Positions 21,658 to 30,554 of a stretch of 64,000 bases of DNA are shown one piece after another. Source of the stretch: Synechococcus sp. 1G10 (GTDB lineage Bacteria > Cyanobacteriota > Cyanobacteriia > PCC-6307 > Cyanobiaceae); assembly GCF_002252625.1 (NCBI RefSeq), contig NZ_NQKW01000010.1:1-64000 (forward strand), in the 5' to 3' direction. Position 1 is the first letter of the stretch. Every line of letters begins with the position of its first letter. Made by a program: the position numbers and the translations under genes. The notes beneath the pieces were generated by a model. That model was not told the DNA's origin, did not search any database, and worked only from the letters and a program-made list of their open reading frames with translations.

Positions 21658-21855
21658 ATGCGCACCACCCTCAACCTCGACGACGATCTCCTCAGCCAGG
21701 CCCAGCAGCTCAGTGGCATCAACGAGCGTCCAACGCTGATCCGCGAAGCGCTCAAAGCTCTCGTGCAACGTGAAAGCGCCCGCCGCCTAGCCGCTCTGGG
21801 TGGCTCTGAGCCCCAGCTCCAGTCCATCCCCCGGCGCCGCAGCGATCCGGCGTGA
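21658..21855 (+). CDS. vapB: VapB-type antitoxin
   Basis: A 65-residue antitoxin with the ribbon-helix-helix start MRTTLNLDDDLLSQAQQLSG, then INERPTLIREALKALVQRES. This pattern is typical of VapB antitoxins paired with PIN toxins. The C-terminal toxin-binding tail is polar (IPRRRSDPA). The ATG at 21658 was chosen over the longer frame because it starts the conserved domain. It overlaps the toxin gene by 4 bp (GTGA), giving translational coupling. Confidence 0.88.
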   Translation: MRTTLNLDDDLLSQAQQLSGINERPTLIREALKALVQRESARRLAALGGSEPQLQSIPRRRSDPA

Positions 21856-22208
21856 TCCTTGTCGACACCTCGGTCTGGATCGAGCACCTCCGCGGAACTC
21901 TGCCGGAGCTGTCGCAGTGCCTTGAGCAAGGGACGATCGCCATCCACCCCTGGGTGATCGGGGAGTTGGCATGCGGCAATCTCCAGAACCGCCAGCTCGT
22001 GCTGGATCTGCTCAAGGCCTTGCCTCCCGTGGCGATCGCGACGGATCATGAGATTCTGCTCATGATCGAGAGCCGGCAGCTGATGGGACGGGGGATCGGA
22101 TACATCGATGCCCACCTGATCACCTCCGCCCTGCTCAGCCAGGCCATCCTCTGGACACGAGACCGACGATTGGCCGCCGTGGCCGGTGAACTCCACCTCT
22201 CCTACTGA
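21852..22208 (+). CDS. vapC: VapC-type PIN-domain toxin ribonuclease
   Basis: A 118-residue PIN-domain RNase. Acidic residues for Mg2+ are present: Asp5 in MILVDTSVWIEHL, Glu in VIGELACGNL, Asp in GYIDAHLITSA and Asp in LWTRDRRLAA. VapC toxins cleave RNA when freed from VapB. GTG start overlaps the antitoxin stop. Complete pair. Confidence 0.9.
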   Translation: MILVDTSVWIEHLRGTLPELSQCLEQGTIAIHPWVIGELACGNLQNRQLVLDLLKALPPVAIATDHEILLMIESRQLMGRGIGYIDAHLITSALLSQAILWTRDRRLAAVAGELHLSY

Positions 22209-22591
22209 TTCAGCTTCGCCTCCAGCGGCGACGGAGCGATCAGCCAGCGCAGGTCGCGATCAAGCGTTGCCGCCAGCTTCGGGTTCCACTGGGGGAGGCT
22301 TTCCCACTCCCGGCGGCTGTAGACGAGCAGATCGGTGGCCAGCGGAAGATCGGCCGTGTCCCAGGGGCGCAGGCGCTCCCAGATCGGCAGCTCGCACTGA
22401 CGCAGCACCAGCAGCAGATCCAGGTCGCTGCCCACACCGGCATCGCCGCGCCCGTAGGAGCGGAACACACCCACCGCCTCCAGCTCCGGTTGGGCCGCCG
22501 CCTGGCGCTGGGCCCACTGCCCTGCCGCCTCAAGCACGCTCTCGGAACTGGGCCAGCGCAGCACGGACCCATTCAATGATCGCTGTGGCAC
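22202..22591 (-). CDS. Nucleotidyltransferase-domain protein (MntA-like)
   Basis: A 129-residue protein with the minimal nucleotidyltransferase motif GVFRSYGRGDAGVGSDLDLLLVL (G-S-Y-x-RG then SDLDL). The first Gly-Ser of the family is Arg-Ser here. GTG start 13 bp after the upstream Uma2 gene on the same strand. Such proteins often pair with HEPN antitoxins or toxins; no HEPN gene is adjacent. Converges on vapC with 7-bp overlap. Confidence 0.7.
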   Translation of the reverse strand: MPQRSLNGSVLRWPSSESVLEAAGQWAQRQAAAQPELEAVGVFRSYGRGDAGVGSDLDLLLVLRQCELPIWERLRPWDTADLPLATDLLVYSRREWESLPQWNPKLAATLDRDLRWLIAPSPLEAKLNQ

Positions 22592-22604
22592 GAAACAGGC
22601 CCTC

Positions 22605-23234
22605 TCAAACGTCCCAGATCGGAGCCAGATCCAACACCAGGCCCGCGAACAGCTCGCCACCATCGAGCTCCTTGGCGTCGTCGTGGCGCTCAGGGGTGGC
22701 GGCGGCCCCAGCGCGCCAGACCTCCACGGCTCTCTCCTCGGACAGCAACAACCAGCCCAGCTGCGCCCCGTTGGCCTGATAGGTGTCCATCTTCTGGCGG
22801 AGTGCACTCACGCCACGGGGCCCTTCGTCGGACGCGCTGGCCATTTCCACCACCAGATCGGGGCAGAGGGGCGCGAACCCACGGCGCTGCTCCGGGCTGA
22901 GAGCCTGCCAGCGATCCAGGCGCACCAGGGAGGCATCAGGGCTCAGCACCGAGCCATCCGGCAGCCGAAATCCGCTGGAGCTGTCGAACCCCTTCAAGGG
23001 CAGGCCACTCCGGCGAACCGCCCACCACAGCAATGCACCAAGGGCCTGGTTGCGGGCGCCGGCTTCGCTGCCGGTGGGGGTCATGGCAATCACCTGGCCA
23101 TCGGCCGCCAGTTCGAGCACCGCATCGGGATTGGCCTGGCACACCAGCTCGAACTGATCAGCGTTGAGCCGTAGGTCCCAGGGCAGCTGCAGCGGCTGCA
23201 CGCCAGGCGTTGGGCTTGGAGGTGCCAGCGTCAT
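22605..23234 (-). CDS. Uma2-family (DUF820) putative endonuclease
   Basis: A 209-residue protein of the Uma2 family, very abundant in cyanobacteria, with a PD-(D/E)xK-like fold. Recognisable: DQFELVCQANPDAVLELAADGQVI, the MTPTGSEAGARNQAL segment, GSVLSPDASLV (catalytic Asp), CPDLVVEMASASD (Glu/Asp) and KMDTYQANGAQLGWLL. The ATG at 23234 yields the usual length. Cellular role of the family is unknown. Confidence 0.9.
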   Translation of the reverse strand: MTLAPPSPTPGVQPLQLPWDLRLNADQFELVCQANPDAVLELAADGQVIAMTPTGSEAGARNQALGALLWWAVRRSGLPLKGFDSSSGFRLPDGSVLSPDASLVRLDRWQALSPEQRRGFAPLCPDLVVEMASASDEGPRGVSALRQKMDTYQANGAQLGWLLLSEERAVEVWRAGAAATPERHDDAKELDGGELFAGLVLDLAPIWDV

Positions 23235-23300
23235 CGACCTTCCGCCTGCTGAACTCCACCGTAACGAGATCACTCAGGCCAGGCCGCAAGCCCTGCTGAT

Positions 23301-23702
23301 TCAGGTGGTGGCCTGATGCAGGGGATATGCCAGATCAGGGAAAGCTCTCAGCACAGCGCGATCCGCCGTGATCAGCGGTATGCCCAGCTGTTGAGCAGCG
23401 ACCACGAATTCACAGTCGTAAGCGCTGCAGCCACTGGTGGCCGCCAGCCGGAGCACAGCGTCAGAACACACCGGTTCCTCATGGCGAATCACCAGGTCTT
23501 CTGCCTGCTGCTGCAGGCTGAGCACTTGATCGAGGCTCAGGTCGCCGCGTCGCAGGTATCCGCTCAGCACGTTGCGCCATTCGCTGCGCCACAACGGCGG
23601 AGACGCCCAGTTGGGTTGATCCATCAGCAAGGCTTCCGCCAGTGCTGTCTGCGGGCCGGGCAGCAGCAGATAGGTCACCACGTTGGTGTCCACAGCGATC
23701 AC
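23301..23702 (-). CDS. PIN-domain toxin (VapC-like)
   Basis: A 133-residue PIN-domain protein: Asp5 in MIAVDTNVVTYLLLPG, Glu in WRSEWRNVLSGYLRRG, Asp in CSAYDCEFVVAAQQ and Asp in LITADRAVLRAFP. GTG start overlaps the stop of the matching antitoxin frame. All key acids are kept, so it should be active, although its antitoxin appears frameshifted. Confidence 0.88.
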   Translation of the reverse strand: MIAVDTNVVTYLLLPGPQTALAEALLMDQPNWASPPLWRSEWRNVLSGYLRRGDLSLDQVLSLQQQAEDLVIRHEEPVCSDAVLRLAATSGCSAYDCEFVVAAQQLGIPLITADRAVLRAFPDLAYPLHQATT

Positions 23703-23934: not shown

Positions 23935-24188
23935 GGCAGCCACCAGTTCATCAACGCGGCATCCATTCTGCAACCGTTTTGGTTTCTGTGAGCTTCGCTG
24001 GCGAGGTTCTGGGCAATTTCCCTGATCTCCGCAATCCAGTGTTCAGGGGTCTTCGATGCGTTCAGGGGAGCATCGGGGCTCAGCAGGACGAATCTCTCCG
24101 CCACGAGCTTGCTCACCTGCGGGCCACCACACCAGCTGCAGGCCGCAGCCTTGACGTCGCGGCCCTGATCCAAGAGGAACGGATTCAA
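23935..24188 (-). CDS. Doubtful ORF downstream of the oxygenase gene
   Basis: A TTG overlapping the stop of the 2OG-oxygenase gene opens a frame with a soluble helical-looking stretch LNASKTPEHWIAEIREIAQNL and a CSWCGG pair. The frame runs on into the antitoxin coding region, so any true C-terminus is unclear. Not recognised; it may be a remnant. Coordinates give the part not overlapping the antitoxin. Confidence 0.25.
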
Positions 24189-25084
24189 GGTTGTTCAGAA
24201 CGTCTCATTCCAAAACATCCAACCACGCTTCTAGATGCCGGTGGGCATAACAACCTGCGTCCATGCATAACGCGCGTGTTGTCGACGACGAGGATCTCGC
24301 CAGTGCGCCAGGGTGGCGCCATCACACAGCGCTCGTGGGCAGCAATCAACTGACGGAGATAGCTCGCATTCATCAATTCGCCAGAACCCCAGAATACTTT
24401 GTTTGTAGGGTGGCAGTAAGTCTGCTGGGCAGCAAGCTCAGCATCGGGGATGGAAGGGAGGTGGGCAAGAATGCCGTTTGCAAACGCTTCCTTGCCGTTC
24501 GACCAGGATTTAAGAAACGGAGACGTTCGCCAGCGAAGGGACAGGCGATCTCCTTCCAGGCGAAAAAACACCTCGCAAACAGACTTCAAAAGCGAGATAA
24601 GTTCATCCCGACTGGTGACATCAAACTCCTGTCGCCATCTGTCAGGCCCCCATTCCATGGTGTAGATCACACCCTCGTTACGAAAGCGCGCCAACAACCT
24701 GGGCGGGATCTCCCCCATCAGCCGTTGTCCATCCACAAGGGTGGTTGCACCACCATCAGACTCGCAAGCAGGTGCTTCCAGGCAGAGGAAGAGGGCGTAG
24801 TCTGGTAGTGGTCTGCAGGGACGATAGGCCCGCTCGGAATGACCCAGCAACGTGAAGTTTCCTGCAGGAGTGTGGTGAACCGCATCCAACGGCAGGCCTT
24901 CACCATCCTGCTGCAGTGCCTCACGACCAATACTGGGAATAAACTCCACGCATAGGCCCTTGCACAGAGTCTGAAAGGTCTGAAGAGCAGACGCACGTGG
25001 TGGCAAGATCCGTGCAAATCCATTCAAACGAACGGCTTCACGAACCTCCTTCAGCAAGCTGGTCAACCCCATCGACAACTGCAA
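24185..25084 (-). CDS. Fe(II)/2-oxoglutarate oxygenase, TauD/SyrP-like
   Basis: A 299-residue TauD/TfdA-fold oxygenase. Iron ligands appear as His82-x-Glu84 (GHSERAYRP) and His274 (NTRVMHGRR), with Arg285 placed to bind 2-oxoglutarate. The HxE instead of HxD, and the segment LFLCLEAP followed by GGATTLVDGQRL, resemble SyrP-like amino-acid hydroxylases from peptide natural-product pathways. Last of four tightly linked, A+T-richer genes; it begins 5 bp after the P450 stop. Likely role: hydroxylation or desaturation of an amino-acid-derived product. Substrate unknown. Confidence 0.85.
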   Translation of the reverse strand: MQLSMGLTSLLKEVREAVRLNGFARILPPRASALQTFQTLCKGLCVEFIPSIGREALQQDGEGLPLDAVHHTPAGNFTLLGHSERAYRPCRPLPDYALFLCLEAPACESDGGATTLVDGQRLMGEIPPRLLARFRNEGVIYTMEWGPDRWRQEFDVTSRDELISLLKSVCEVFFRLEGDRLSLRWRTSPFLKSWSNGKEAFANGILAHLPSIPDAELAAQQTYCHPTNKVFWGSGELMNASYLRQLIAAHERCVMAPPWRTGEILVVDNTRVMHGRRLLCPPASRSVVGCFGMRRSEQP

Positions 25085-25089
25085 ACCGC

Positions 25090-26295
25090 CTACGCTTCCA
25101 GCACCACTGGCAGGGAAGCGAGGCAGCGGAAGAAGCCGTTCCGATGCCAGTGGGGGGAATCAGCAAGCCCTGCTGCGGGATAACGATCAAAGAAACGCTG
25201 CACGGCAATCCGAGCTTCCAGCCGAGCCAGGTGGCGGCCAAGGCAATGGTGCCGACCGATGCCAAAGGCCAGATGCGGGTTGGGTTGCCTGGTGATCAGA
25301 AACTCATCGGCACGGTCGAACACTATGCCATCTCGGTTGGCAGAACCGAGAATGACAGACAGCTGTTCCCCCTGCTCGAAACGATGGCCGCAGATCTCGA
25401 TCACATCCGTCGTGATCCGAAACGTGCTTCTCTGCTCCGGACTTTCAAACCGCAGAACTTCCTCCACGGCTCCATCAATCAAGCCGGGTTCTAGCCGCAG
25501 TTTCTGCATCTGCAGGGGATGGGTGATGAATAGCAAAATCGCGCTGCCGATCAGAGAAATCGTGGTTTCATGGCCGGCAAACATCAACAGGAACAGCATG
25601 CTGATCGCTTCTTCAGAGTTGATCACAGAACTGGCCTGCGCCCTCTGCAGATGACCGAGCAGAGTATCCGCTGGCAAGAGCTCAGCTGAAGCGAGGGAAT
25701 GAGCGATGAACTCATGCATCTGCCGGTATCCATCCAGCCTGGCAACAATCTCACCTGTCGAGACCACAACATCATCTGCCGCAGCGGCAATCATCAGGGA
25801 CCACTCACGTATCTGTGCCATGCTGGTCATCGGCAAACCCATCAACGCCGCCAATACCCTCAGAGGTATGGCTTCGGCATAGTGGCTTATCAGGTCTGCG
25901 TTGCCATAAGGCTGAAGGTTGCTGAGAAGCTCGGAAGCTGCATCATCAATAAGACTCTGATAGCGTTGAACAGTCTGAACCCTGAAGAAATCAGCCACAA
26001 TGGATCGAAGGCGACGATGATCCGGTTCATCCTGAAACAACATGCTGAGATCAAAGCCCATCGCACGTCCCCCCGGTCTCGTCAGATCGCTGCGCTTGGA
26101 GATCGCGGTGGGCTGACGCAGAAGAGCAACGGCTTGCTCATACGTACTCAACAGCCACTTGCCTTGCGAACGATTGGGTTCATCCGGATGGTGGGCAAGA
26201 TAGATGGGCTCCTTTCGCAGCCGTAGGGCGGCATAGGCGGTATAGGGATCATCCCTCAACAATTGGTACAGCCGATCCGTAGAGTTGGTGGTCAT
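25090..26295 (-). CDS. Cytochrome P450
   Basis: A 401-residue soluble bacterial P450. I-helix oxygen-binding motif FAGHETT at 239-245, ExxR as EEVLR at 278-282, and heme-ligand loop FGIGRHHCLGRHLA with Cys351. There is no membrane anchor, and size and motifs fit class I enzymes such as the CYP107 group that oxidise natural products using ferredoxin; no dedicated ferredoxin gene is adjacent. Overlaps the upstream gene by 4 bp, so it is translationally coupled. Confidence 0.95.
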   Translation of the reverse strand: MTTNSTDRLYQLLRDDPYTAYAALRLRKEPIYLAHHPDEPNRSQGKWLLSTYEQAVALLRQPTAISKRSDLTRPGGRAMGFDLSMLFQDEPDHRRLRSIVADFFRVQTVQRYQSLIDDAASELLSNLQPYGNADLISHYAEAIPLRVLAALMGLPMTSMAQIREWSLMIAAAADDVVVSTGEIVARLDGYRQMHEFIAHSLASAELLPADTLLGHLQRAQASSVINSEEAISMLFLLMFAGHETTISLIGSAILLFITHPLQMQKLRLEPGLIDGAVEEVLRFESPEQRSTFRITTDVIEICGHRFEQGEQLSVILGSANRDGIVFDRADEFLITRQPNPHLAFGIGRHHCLGRHLARLEARIAVQRFFDRYPAAGLADSPHWHRNGFFRCLASLPVVLEA

Positions 26296-26780
26296 GAGGT
26301 AAGCTCTCCTCGCTGAATCCGGAAGAAACCCTTCAGTTCGATCTCAAACAAACCGTCCATCGCATCGGTAACATGGAATTCACCATGGCAGTAGGCGGTT
26401 CCCTGAATGAAGCGAAATGATCTGGCCCGCATCTCCACGGAGATCCCCTCATAGGTCCTGATCGGTCGGATCAGGTGGCATTGGCACTCCTTCATCCAGG
26501 CTTCCTCTGCCTTCAAGGGCAATGCCAACGTAGTATATGCATGAACGAGAATAACTTCCGAACAGAACTCCATCGCAGTATAGACAGAGAGATGAAAAGT
26601 GCGCTGATCTGTAGGCGAGAGAAAGGGATTTTGAATGTCTACCAAAGCACTGGAATGATCGCCTTGGACTGTGATCCGCGGGATACTCCAGATCTCACGA
26701 GCCTTACCCCCATGCAGATAGACTGACTGAAAAGGACTGAGTTCAGCTCCGCAGTAGGTCCGAGGACTGGCATCACCCAT
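26292..26780 (-). CDS. Small protein of uncertain fold, possibly hotdog-like
   Basis: A 162-residue protein without clear named motifs. Alternating beta-strand patterns (SALVDIQNPFLS, SVEMRARSFRFIQGTAYCHGEFHV) and a central hydrophobic helix (YTAMEFCSEVILVHAYTTLALP) recall hotdog-fold thioesterases or dehydratases, for example FcoT-like proteins, but this is a weak structural guess. The ATG at 26780 gives an 8-bp overlap with the ligase gene; a longer start at 26834 would add 18 residues. Position between an ATP-grasp ligase and a P450 suggests a step in the same pathway, perhaps substrate binding or release. Confidence 0.6.
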   Translation of the reverse strand: MGDASPRTYCGAELSPFQSVYLHGGKAREIWSIPRITVQGDHSSALVDIQNPFLSPTDQRTFHLSVYTAMEFCSEVILVHAYTTLALPLKAEEAWMKECQCHLIRPIRTYEGISVEMRARSFRFIQGTAYCHGEFHVTDAMDGLFEIELKGFFRIQRGELTS

Positions 26781-28737
26781 GACGGTGCTCAATGGAGCAA
26801 ATATTTGCTGCCATGATATCAGCAAGTTGCTCATAGTGATCCAATCGCTTGAATCGACCAGCCGTTCGCTTCAGCTGAGCCTCAAAAGCAGCTGAATTGC
26901 GAGGCGAATAACAGTAGATCTCAGGCTTGCAAAGACGAGCCAGCAACTGTGCCATGCGCAGCAGAGAAGTTGATTCAGAAGCTGCATTCGGTCCCGCTTC
27001 GGAAGCCTCGGCAATAAAAAGCCTTTCAAATCGATCCACAGGAGAACCACGACCAAGAAAGCTGCTGTCCCACGGGGCAATCACAACACGGCGAAGTTCA
27101 TGATTGGCCAGGAGGTGTAGCGTGGTTGAGAAACTGTCGCTGACGATATTCTCGATCTTCCGTGACCCGAGAAACACGCCGTCAGCCCCCACCAGTCCAA
27201 CCCCTTCTTCCAAGGCAACGCCACGCTTCTGAAGAGCCTCTGAAAGTGCAGCGACACCAGGTAAGCCCAGCACGATGTCGACAGGAATCCGACCCTGATC
27301 AACCAACAGCTGACTGAGAACGTGATGCTGAAGATGACCCGACATCTGTGGCTGGGCATTCACCTCGCAGATCACGGCTCCAATGTCCAGCCAAGATATT
27401 CCAATATCGGCAATCAGCAGATCAATGCCAGCAATATTGAGCGAGAAAGTATCGGCGGCACGAATAGCCAAGTCAATGTTGTCTGGATGGACCTTCTCCA
27501 TAACCGGCATGGGCACCCCTCCAAGACTCACGTTGGCGGCACGTCGCAGCCGAACGAATCTGCCCGCAACAGGCACATCCGATGGCAACAGCCCCTGCTC
27601 ATGGAGAAGCCTCTGTGCTTCTTCATCCAATGGAATCCGTGCCAGTGGTCGACCACTGCCTTTGACACCACGATCGGGGTCACGATTGAGCTCGTCGAGA
27701 AGCTCGTTCACATTTCTGGTGCCATCCCCCGTGATCCCACCAGGCACCCGCTCAACAGCCCAGTAGACCTGCCGGTTAAGCACTTGAAGTCGATAGTCTC
27801 TGGCCTCAACATACTTCTCCACCAGAATGCCCCTGGAACGCGAAAGCACCGCCTCTGCGGCCTTCCGTACCTCTGATTCGGTTGTCAGAAAGACATGCAC
27901 TTCTATTCCACCTTCGGTATCCACAGGCTTCACAACGACCGGCACACCGAGCTTGGTCGCCGCCGGCCAGGCCTGCTCCGCCGCCGATACGAGCAGCCCC
28001 GGTGTTATGGGCAGACCGGCAGTAGCAAGCATTTGCTTGGCATACAGCTTATGGCGCGCGAACTTACAGCCTATCGCGCTGGTGGCGTCACTCATCGAGC
28101 TGTCGAGCAACAGGGAACGGCAACCCCAGCCAAAGCGATAGAGATTGGCCACGACTCTTCGGCATGGCACTTGCAGGGTATCGGCAGCCTGAATGAATTT
28201 GATTGTATTCACTCCAAAAGGCACCGCCGCCTTCAGGCTTATCATGGACTGTTGAAGGACATCAACCTGTGCCTCAATCAGCTCAGGAAAACCCACCCCT
28301 GCCATGACCTTTATCCAGGCGCTAAGTGCAGAACTCAATGGCTTCACCGCCAGGTCGGTGGATGGAATAATCAATCTGAAGGTGTCGCTGGCGATGCGGC
28401 GATGACTGCCCTTTCCGAAGATCGGCAATCTCAGCTGCGCCTGCATCTCGGTTAGCAGTAGCAAGTACTGCTGGCTCCAATAAACTGGTGCATCCGGTAG
28501 ATTGCAATGATTGGAACCGGGGCCTGTGGTCAGTGGCCCCAGGCCAAGCCGCTGCCAGACGTTGTCAAGAGTTTCCTGCCAGTGGCTGCAACTGGGGAGG
28601 AATTCTGGATAAATACGGAGATCGCAGATCAGGGAATAGGGCAGCACGCCTGGTAGATAGCCCTCAATCACCGCTTGCATCAGCAATGAACAGGGCCCAG
28701 CAGACGGAGATGCCAGGGGGGTGGACTCAGTCTTCAT
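26773..28737 (-). CDS. Cyanophycin-synthetase-like ATP-grasp ligase with degenerate Mur domain
   Basis: A 654-residue amide ligase. Residues 1-210 match the N-terminal part of cyanophycin synthetase only loosely. Residues about 220-470 are an ATP-grasp domain very like the CphA G domain: ATP lysine in VPVVVKPVDTEGG (Lys270), VEKYVEARDYRLQVL, GDGTRNVNELLDELNRDP and metal ligands in GIDLL (Asp439) and CEVNAQPQ (Glu458, Asn460). Residues about 480-575 align with the start of the CphA Mur-ligase domain, but the P-loop GTNGKTT position reads LGLPGVAAL, and the rest of the Mur domain is absent. So one ligase site is probably active. First of four coupled genes, 8 bp after lepA. Substrates unknown. 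Confidence 0.85.
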   Translation of the reverse strand: MKTESTPLASPSAGPCSLLMQAVIEGYLPGVLPYSLICDLRIYPEFLPSCSHWQETLDNVWQRLGLGPLTTGPGSNHCNLPDAPVYWSQQYLLLLTEMQAQLRLPIFGKGSHRRIASDTFRLIIPSTDLAVKPLSSALSAWIKVMAGVGFPELIEAQVDVLQQSMISLKAAVPFGVNTIKFIQAADTLQVPCRRVVANLYRFGWGCRSLLLDSSMSDATSAIGCKFARHKLYAKQMLATAGLPITPGLLVSAAEQAWPAATKLGVPVVVKPVDTEGGIEVHVFLTTESEVRKAAEAVLSRSRGILVEKYVEARDYRLQVLNRQVYWAVERVPGGITGDGTRNVNELLDELNRDPDRGVKGSGRPLARIPLDEEAQRLLHEQGLLPSDVPVAGRFVRLRRAANVSLGGVPMPVMEKVHPDNIDLAIRAADTFSLNIAGIDLLIADIGISWLDIGAVICEVNAQPQMSGHLQHHVLSQLLVDQGRIPVDIVLGLPGVAALSEALQKRGVALEEGVGLVGADGVFLGSRKIENIVSDSFSTTLHLLANHELRRVVIAPWDSSFLGRGSPVDRFERLFIAEASEAGPNAASESTSLLRMAQLLARLCKPEIYCYSPRNSAAFEAQLKRTAGRFKRLDHYEQLADIMAANICSIEHRHG

Positions 28738-28745
28738 ATTGAAAC

Positions 28746-30554
28746 CTACTGATTCAGCTTCAGCACCGCCATGAAGGCCTCCTGGGGCACATCCACCTTG
28801 CCCATGGCCTTCATGCGCTTCTTGCCCTTGGCTTGCTTTTTAAGGAGCTTCTTCTTGCGGGAAATGTCGCCGCCGTAGCACTTGGCCAGCACATCCTTGC
28901 GGATGGCGCTGATGCTTTCGCTGGCGATTATGCGGCTGCCGATCGAGGCCTGGATCGGAATCTTGAACTGCTGCCTGGGAATCAGCTCCTTCAGCTTCTC
29001 CACCAGGCCCTTGCCCACGTTGTAGGCCTTGTCGCGATGCACGATCGTAGTGAGCGGATCGGCCTTCTCGCTGTTGATCAGCACATCGAGGCGCACCAAT
29101 TCATTCTTGCGGTAGCCGATCAGGCTGTATTCCATCGAGGCATAACCCTTGGTGCGGCTCTTCATCTGATCAAAGAAATCCGTCACCACTTCCGCCAGTG
29201 GCATCTCGTAGTGCAGCGTCACCCGGTCAGTGGTGATGTACTTCATGTCGATGAACTCACCTCGCCGTTCCTGGCACAGCTCCATCAGGGCACCGTTGTA
29301 GCTGTTGGGCGTGTAGATCTCCAGCTTCACATAGGGCTCCTCGATCGATTCACGCTTCTGCGGATCCGGCAGGGTGGCGGGATTGTCCACCATCAAGGTG
29401 CTGCCGTCGATCATGTTCACCTGATAGATCACTGACGGCGCCGTCACGATCAGGTCGAGGTCGTACTCGCGCTCCAGACGCTCCTGCACGATCTCCATGT
29501 GCAGCAACCCGAGGAAGCCACAGCGGAAGCCGAAGCCCATGGCACTGCTGGTTTCCGGCTCATACTTCAGCGCCGCATCGGAGAGCTGCAGCTTGTCGAG
29601 CGCGTCGCGCAGATCGGGGTACTGATCGGCGTCGGTGGGGAACAGGCCGCAGAACACCATCGGCTTGGCTTCGGCGTAACCCGGCAGCGGCTCCGCCGCC
29701 GGATTGGCGGCAAGGGTGATCGTGTCGCCCACCCGCGCATCAGCCACCGCCTTGATCGAGGCCGCCATGTAGCCGACCTCACCGGCATGCAGGCTGGGCA
29801 CCTGGCGCTGGTCGGGCGCCATCACGCCCACCTCATCGAGCTCCACGGTCTTGCCGCTGGCCATCAGCAGCACCTTGTCCTTGCGGGCGATCACACCGCT
29901 GATCACCCGGAAATAGACGATCACACCCCGGTAGGGGTCGTAATAGGAATCGAAGATCAGCGCCCGCAGTGGTTCGTCCACTTGGTCCGCCGGCGGCGGC
30001 ACCCGCTCCACCACCGCTTCGAGGATCTCGGGAATGCCCAGGCCGGTCTTGGCGGAGCAGGCGATCGCTTTGGAGGTGTCGAGGCCGATGATCGCTTCGA
30101 TCTCTTCCTTGATGCGCTCGGGATCGGCGCCGGGCAGATCGATCTTGTTCAGCACCGGGATGATCTCCAGATCATTCTCCAGCGCCAGGTACACATTCGC
30201 CAGCGTCTGCGCCTCCACCCCCTGGCTGGCATCCACCACCAGCAACGCACCTTCACAGGCCTGCAGGCTGCGGCTCACCTCATAGGAAAAGTCCACATGG
30301 CCCGGCGTGTCGATCAGGTTGAGGATGTACTTCTCTCCATCGGCGGCCGTGTACTCCATGCGGGCGGCCTGGAGCTTGATCGTGATCCCCCGCTCCCGCT
30401 CAAGTTCCATGTTGTCGAGGAACTGGGCCTGCATGTCGCGCGCCGCCACGGTGCCGGTGTCCTGCAGCAACCGATCGGCCAGGGTCGATTTGCCGTGGTC
30501 GATGTGGGCAATGATGCAGAAGTTGCGGATCCGTGAAACGGGAACGTCGGTCAT
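28746..30554 (-). CDS. lepA: Elongation factor 4 (LepA) GTPase
   Basis: A 602-residue translational GTPase. G motifs: AHIDHGKST near residue 16, [22 protein letters not shown] and CSAKTGLG. Domain order G, II, III, V and the C-terminal domain ending [22 protein letters not shown] matches LepA. It acts on ribosomes under stress or during initiation. Its stop lies 8 bp before the ATP-grasp gene, so that gene may be read from the lepA transcript. Confidence 0.97.

Follow-up and report, generated by a model that had tools for sequence, protein, structure and literature searches.

The stretch of DNA analysed here, referred to as the window, comprises 64,000 nucleotides (nt) of Synechococcus sp. 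1G10 (contig NZ_NQKW01000010.1, positions 1 to 64,000). Our subject is a gene on its minus strand, P0001, which runs from 28737 to 26773 and encodes a ligase-like protein of 654 amino acids (aa) with an ATG start. An earlier note, made from the sequence alone, had placed an open reading frame (ORF) at 26773-28737 and read it as a relative of cyanophycin synthetase (CphA); the frame proved to be real and to lie on the minus strand. P0001 starts 8 nt past the stop of its upstream neighbor, named by eye as lepA (28746-30554, minus strand), and is the first of four tightly packed minus-strand genes. It is followed by a gene for a hotdog-fold protein (26292-26834; 180 aa as listed, with an internal ATG at 26780 as the likelier start), a cytochrome P450 gene (25090-26295, 401 aa) and a gene for a TauD/clavaminate-synthase-like Fe(II)/2-oxoglutarate (Fe/2OG) oxygenase (24185-25084, 299 aa). 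The listed 180-aa gene overlaps the end of the ligase gene, the ATG of the P450 gene overlaps the stop codon of the hotdog gene, and the oxygenase gene begins 5 nt after the P450.

On the basis of profile matches, PDB matches and alignment, P0001 was assigned as a CphA2-like single-site ATP-grasp ligase. It consists of an N-terminal part of low similarity (residues 1 to about 160), an ATP-grasp core (about 173-470), a relic of a Mur ligase domain without a P-loop (about 476-580) and a tail. The best PDB match was CphA1 7lgm (E 3e-52, residues 173-470), and 8fxh and 7ta5 were matched as well. We take 8fxh/8fxi and 7ta5 to be CphA2; the PDB lists them under other names. The NCBIfam cyanophycin synthetase model PRK14016 matched residues 162-567 with an E value of 7e-83. 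The scores were far below the curated CphA1 cut-offs (246.9 bits against 850 for TIGR02068, 279.2 against 877 for PRK14016), and the match to the NCBIfam model was above chance despite this. Weaker relatives were TIGR03103 (N-acetylglutaminylglutamine synthetase, E 7e-39) and PRK02471 (GshF module, E 2e-41). Both are related ATP-grasp enzymes that make one amide bond; in P0001, however, the matches were limited to the ATP-grasp part and lay far below the curated cut-offs.

The active site was compared in an alignment of P0001 and 35 relatives, which contained four operon ligases (P0001 and its counterparts in related operons), 11 of the 21 full-length CphA1 loci and five CphA2-type rows, of which only L043 was checked against 8fxh (E 2e-275), the other four being named by resemblance. 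Residue roles were taken from the account of Trichodesmium CphA1 in PMC9427784, and the numbering was fixed on 7wac. Eight of the 11 CphA1 role residues were retained in all four operon ligases (K220, K261, R309, R323, D431, E450, N394, and S396), corresponding to K230, K270, R316, R330, D439, E458, N402, and S404 of P0001. P0001 thus carries the set of a carboxylate-amine ligase: K230 and K270 for adenosine triphosphate (ATP), D439, E458, and N460 for Mg, and R316 and R330 for the acyl phosphate. The earlier note had listed Lys270, Asp439, Glu458, and Asn460 as kept, and they do align with Lys261, Asp431, Glu450 and the asparagine of the EVN motif in CphA1. Between genera the operon ligases shared only 37-43% identity, yet the metal and ATP ligands were retained in 4/4, and the ratio of nonsynonymous to synonymous substitution rates (dN/dS) was 0.27 over the 459 codons up to the EVN motif in one comparison.

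The substrate side of the site was different. The acidic residue 215, described as contacting the arginine side chain of the chain end in CphA1 (PMC9427784), was Glu or Asp in 11/11 CphA1 and Asp in 5/5 CphA2-type rows, and Lys or Asn in 4/4 operon ligases. The lid loop read GGxEVHV in place of GHKGIG in all four operon ligases, a motif found in no other aligned row, and His267 of CphA1, which lies in this loop, was lost. Arg458 of CphA1, to which the same source assigns the binding of the alpha-carboxylate of the incoming aspartate, was also lost (EVNAQPQ compared with EVNAxPGxRMH). The N-domain motif Cx19HxxEH, present in 10/11 CphA1, was found in none of the four operon ligases, none of the five CphA2-type rows and none of six rows of picoA1, a divergent CphA1-like gene described below. 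Compared with CphA1 (7lg5, 7lgm, 7wac), P0001 therefore shares the ATP-grasp core and lacks the Mur P-loop and lid, Cx19HxxEH, Arg458, His267 and the acidic residue 215. The losses at 267, 458, and 215 would also suit a non-catalytic scaffold or regulator of picoA1, as would the oligomerisation of CphA enzymes and the co-occurrence of P0001 with picoA1. The ligands kept across genera and the dN/dS of 0.27 argue against such a role, which we regard as very improbable.

The segment that follows the core was examined by alignment, profile comparison and dN/dS. In the alignment, residues 476-580 of P0001 correspond to the beginning of the M domain of CphA1 (GRIPVDIVLGLPGVAALSEAL...VGADGVFLGS in P0001, RIPI..VTGTNGKTTTTRL...TTDGxYIG in CphA1), as the earlier note had described. 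Its reading that LGLPGVAAL stands in place of the P-loop held as well, and the DHxG motif and the lid were likewise missing from the downstream alignment. The relic and tail (about residues 480-654, positions 26773-27300, minus strand) contain the conserved pattern GRIPVDxVLG...GLxGxDGVFxG. By hhalign, the region of about residues 465-590 matched the relic of shortB, a short ligase gene of two other genomes, with E 7.5e-6 (probability 84%) and the CphA2 relic with E 2e-5 (probability 77%); the E values against the M domains of picoA1 and CphA1 were 0.013 and 0.017 (probability about 3%). Two negative controls gave 0.67 and 0.4, and the positive control, the CphA2 relic against CphA1, gave 8e-9. 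The profiles thus link P0001 only weakly to an intact M domain, and the connection rests on collinearity in the alignment and on CphA2 as an intermediate. An AlphaFold model of P0001 from a five-row alignment was of low confidence (mean predicted local distance difference test (pLDDT) 36, predicted template modelling score (pTM) 0.26), and the fold of residues 480-654 is therefore argued from profiles only.

The relic segment was under purifying selection, with dN/dS values of 0.19, 0.31, and 0.42 in three comparisons; the ligase of locus L040 was used only in these C-terminal comparisons. These values indicated that the Mur relic is maintained, as in CphA2. The domain that the earlier note had called dead and truncated is thus a non-catalytic remnant without P-loop and lid, but it is conserved and constrained rather than decaying. 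A pseudogene reading of P0001 was ruled out by dN/dS and conservation. CphA2 is described as lacking the P-loop and lid of the M domain (PMC9427784) and as polymerising beta-Asp-Arg (PMC10206079), and the five CphA2-type sequences aligned here showed the same loss. The proposed change from a two-ligase polymer synthase to a single-ligase enzyme stands insofar as P0001 appears to be a CphA relative reduced to one site; the single-ligase state is not new in itself, because CphA2 has the same architecture.

The likeness to CphA2 raises the possibility that P0001 is a divergent CphA2 that rejoins beta-Asp-Arg, or a near relative, into cyanophycin, with incidental neighbors. Like CphA2, P0001 has a single ATP-grasp site, a RIP-start Mur relic without P-loop and lid, and about 630-650 aa (8fxh has 642 aa and 7ta5 has 629 aa in the same domain plan); its relic was closest to those of CphA2 and shortB, and Arg458 was missing from the CphA2-type rows too. 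Two trees of the ATP-grasp domain were calculated; the first left out L048 and L049, which are of another type, and the second also left out the long-branch rows L025, L027, L029, and L032_shortC. The operon ligases formed a clade in both trees (100/99), apart from CphA2, and were sister to the shortB genes of genomes G002 and G007 (92/93 in the first tree, 97/94 in the second). In the approximately unbiased (AU) test, a constrained clade of operon ligases and CphA2 alone was rejected (p-AU 0.014), as was one of operon ligases and picoA1 (p-AU 0.038). A clade that also included shortB was not rejected, either for CphA2 (p-AU 0.17) or for picoA1 (p-AU 0.21), and a single origin of all one-site CphA enzymes is conceivable. 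Unlike CphA2, the operon ligases have lost the acidic residue 215, carry GGxEVHV and adjoin the hotdog, P450 and Fe/2OG genes in a conserved operon; moreover, no cyanophycinase match was found that would supply beta-Asp-Arg. A CphA2 function of P0001 is therefore quite improbable in our judgment.

The four genes were found in the same order in genome G031, of a different genus, and in L042, a contig of a metagenome-assembled genome (MAG). Identities between G031 and the window were 37% for the ligase, 46% for the hotdog protein, 48% for the P450 and 41% for the oxygenase. The order was also kept in two damaged copies: in L040 the contig begins within the ligase gene, and in L041 the oxygenase frame and the junction of the ligase and hotdog genes are broken. 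In L041 (8001-10278) the hotdog frame is broken as well, by assembly error or decay. Contig numbers, lengths or coordinates identify L040, L041, and L042 with the MAG contigs of G696, G586, and G671, and each was counted once. The operon was thus present in 5/400 family genomes, which are five distinct genomes of three genera; a profile of the 180-aa protein gave the same 5/400, 1/388 class genomes and three loci in species-representative contigs. Further copies can be missed, because the scans of family genomes scored at most three candidates per genome in one scan and two in the picoA1 scan.

The G+C content at third codon positions (GC3) of the window operon was 0.56-0.61, compared with 0.85-0.90 for lepA (0.85), serS and rseP (named by eye). 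It was 0.46-0.58 for three genes of the G031 operon (the P450 was left out) and 0.51-0.62 for the L042 operon, and 0.76-0.86 for five nearby non-CphA genes measured at these two loci. The low GC3 at all three loci measured fits transfer of the operon as a unit and suggests that it has moved horizontally. A cluster of small genes lies beside the operon at 21852-23702 in the window; one of them (23301-23702) encodes a PIN-domain protein and resembles a member of a toxin-antitoxin pair.

Directly after the oxygenase gene in L040, L041, and L042 lies picoA1. In L042, the genes flanking the set of operon and picoA1 encode a photolyase on one side and a DegT aminotransferase on the other. Because the contigs end, only the photolyase flank is visible in L041, and in L040 both flanks are missing. 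picoA1 also lies between photolyase and DegT in G031, about 80 kb from the operon, and on another contig of the window genome (G000). It was found in 7/390 family genomes, six times at full length and once interrupted (G586, with the last part on another contig), and G451 has a C-terminal remnant only. All five operon genomes carry picoA1, and the other two carriers, G002 and G007, have shortB beside it; a shortB-like gene adjoins the remnant in G451. In a picoA1 tree the copy of the window genome was separated from those of G002 and G007, which belong to the same genus, and grouped with copies from operon carriers in other genera (91/98). Genus monophyly was rejected with a p-AU of 0.021, for a grouping that was chosen after seeing the first ATP-grasp tree. 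The encoded protein keeps the P-loop GSxGKTT and both ligase domains, while residue 215 is Gln, Lys, or Arg and the Asp of the M-domain DH pair is Asn or Ala in 6/6 aligned sequences; by its sequence picoA1 is not an ordinary CphA1. With one profile, no cyanophycinase was found in the eight genomes with picoA1 or a remnant (the seven carriers and G451). G419, which has an ordinary CphA1, did give a cyanophycinase match, so true cyanophycin genes exist in the family; at L086 (5115-8656) of G419 the cyanophycinase adjoins CphA1.

A picoA1 that keeps both ligase domains and co-occurs with P0001 could mean that the joint product of the two is an amino-acid polymer of an unusual kind or a capsule-like peptide, which the P450, the oxygenase and the hotdog protein decorate. 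In the window genome, picoA1 is directly adjoined by a PGA_cap (capsule) gene. Against this, no CapA-like gene was seen by eye beside picoA1 in L034, L038, and L042, and P450s and Fe/2OG oxygenases usually take small or carrier-bound substrates. We consider such a polymer unlikely.

The neighbors of P0001 were then compared with known families. An AlphaFold model of the hotdog protein from three sequences showed hotdog topology with a pLDDT of 59.5 and a pTM of 0.59. Foldseek returned FabZ and thioesterases (E about 1e-4). With VIA-align, ranks 1-4 of this low-confidence model were SAV606 and Rv0098 (Z 12.2-13.4), led by SAV606 with N-carboxymethyl-3-aminobutyrate (Z 13.4) and Rv0098 (Z 13.1), and the best FabZ scored 12.1. 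The protein may thus be FcoT/SAV606-like by fold, with low confidence. It had no convincing family match, and PDB profile searches were also without a sequence relative. FcoT (PF10862) was not matched by Pfam in four members up to an E value of 10, and a scan for PF10862 in 60 and 291 cyanobacterial genomes (including the window genome) and three actinobacterial plasmids found none; as 14 control genomes were also blank, this does not establish absence. The single sub-threshold match, in G212, covered 63 positions and contained stops. No homologues of the hotdog protein were found on plasmids.

The P450 has intact FGxGxHxCLG (heme) and AGHETT motifs, and its best solved matches (a biotin-biosynthesis-type P450 first, PksS third) were not specific. 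The H-x-E...H triad of the oxygenase (H82-x-E84, H274) was invariant in four aligned members. Its profile matches were all weak and included TauD types, clavaminate synthase, asparagine and arginine hydroxylases and PvcB; no ScoE structure was among the 22 matches. ScoE has a triad of the HxD type, and the oxygenase studied here has HxE. Of 74 records of plasmid homologues of the oxygenase, four (24-28% identity) were inspected: adenylation or nonribosomal peptide synthetase (NRPS) genes are next to H21 and H23, H26 lies near methyltransferase and amidinotransferase genes, and H25 has no annotation. SAV606-type enzymes are described as adding glycine to enoyl thioesters, feeding beta-amino-acid and isonitrile routes, and in the latter as paired with an Fe/2OG oxygenase (PMC11284099). 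The likeness of the operon to the SAV606/CmiS1/Rv0098 systems lies in this pairing and in the top fold matches of the hotdog protein; it differs in that there was no sequence match and the best FabZ scored just 1.3 Z lower.

Other short CphA-type ligases have varied neighbors, which indicated that one-site CphA relatives are diverse in the family. At the photolyase site, the window genome has a 617-aa short ligase whose neighbors are a DUF3326 gene and methyltransferase genes. Short ligases by a methyltransferase-like gene were seen in G554, G586 (below the Pfam cut-off), and G671 (by eye), and others lie beside an autotransporter-type gene (L080) or a gene without a Pfam match (L036). On contig C69 of the window genome, L032 (4128-14156) holds the 617-aa ligase, DUF3326, two methyltransferases, picoA1, and the PGA_cap gene between photolyase and DegT, and a further CphA relative of 680 aa is found at L033 (5551-7593). 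picoA1 is followed by shortB in G002 (L034, 4186-11736) and G007 (L035, 6713-11185), and in G002 a phosphodiesterase-like protein, just below the Pfam cut-off, and a glycosyltransferase follow. A similar-looking set was seen by eye in G451 (L078, 3390-9538), with the picoA1 remnant beside transposase-looking genes. The CphA-type genes in the photolyase/DegT interval (L032, L038, L042, L081) differ from genome to genome, which gives this interval the look of a hotspot.

Taken together, we think it rather probable that P0001 is a CphA-derived single-site ATP-grasp amide ligase of a small, NRPS-free specialised-metabolite operon, working with picoA1; P0001 probably joins small-molecule building blocks rather than making the cyanophycin polymer. 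In favor of this are the homology, the kept ATP and metal residues, the loss of the Mur P-loop, the conservation of the operon, the co-occurrence of picoA1 and the missing cyanophycinase match. P0001 would act like the G domain of CphA, using ATP to turn a carboxylate into an acyl phosphate that an amine attacks. The hotdog protein may prepare or release the acyl unit, and the P450 and the Fe/2OG oxygenase may oxidise that unit or the attached amino acid. Amide bonds would be formed by the ligases P0001 and picoA1 without an NRPS, and the Mur relic would have been retained for a structural role, as in CphA2. The guess of the earlier note, a short peptide or amide, is plausible and the best supported by the sequence data, with the substrate and product as putative ones.

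Several points weigh against this interpretation. The activity, step order, substrates and product proposed for the pathway are all inferred, and the substrate of the two oxygenases may have nothing to do with the ligase. Inspection by eye of the window ORFs of at least 80 aa revealed neither an acyl carrier protein nor an adenylating enzyme nor a transporter. His267 is lost, and the H267A exchange is described as killing the G-domain activity of a CphA1 (PMC9262961); this loss is not decisive, because the CphA2-type and picoA1 rows also have no His in this column. Arg458 is likewise missing from the CphA2-type rows. The two clades that were not rejected (p-AU 0.17 and 0.21) make CphA2-like substrates conceivable for P0001. 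The three MAGs in which picoA1 adjoins the operon are of one genus, so that their linkage does not represent three independent events. Finally, the cyanophycinase result comes from one profile, and two of the eight genomes are just 64 and 85% complete.

A broader and doubtful extension is that paired CphA-derived ligases, picoA1 and a one-site partner, replace NRPS for a family of small products in some picocyanobacteria. The tailoring genes would be swappable: hotdog, P450 and Fe/2OG genes here, phosphodiesterase-like and glycosyltransferase genes with shortB, and methyltransferases with others. In the operon type, a glycine adduct or beta-amino acyl unit would come from the hotdog protein by SAV606 chemistry, and the Fe/2OG oxygenase would oxidise it, possibly to an isonitrile, before coupling by the ATP-grasp ligase.

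What is new is the setting of P0001, namely the conserved operon and the pattern of paired ligases, and the main clue lies outside the P0001 coordinates. In the literature consulted here, CphA enzymes are described as serving nitrogen storage, and searches of the open-licence literature found nothing relevant on a CphA-like family or on biosynthetic clusters with a CphA-type ligase. picoA1 also makes it doubtful that such genes are rightly named cyanophycin synthetase by automatic annotation. The operon and its relatives are a defined group of compact gene sets that lend themselves to expression in full with a readout by mass spectrometry. If our interpretation is true, the CphA-derived ligase fold would be used for specialised metabolism, in an apparently mobile operon and in genomes with no cyanophycinase match.

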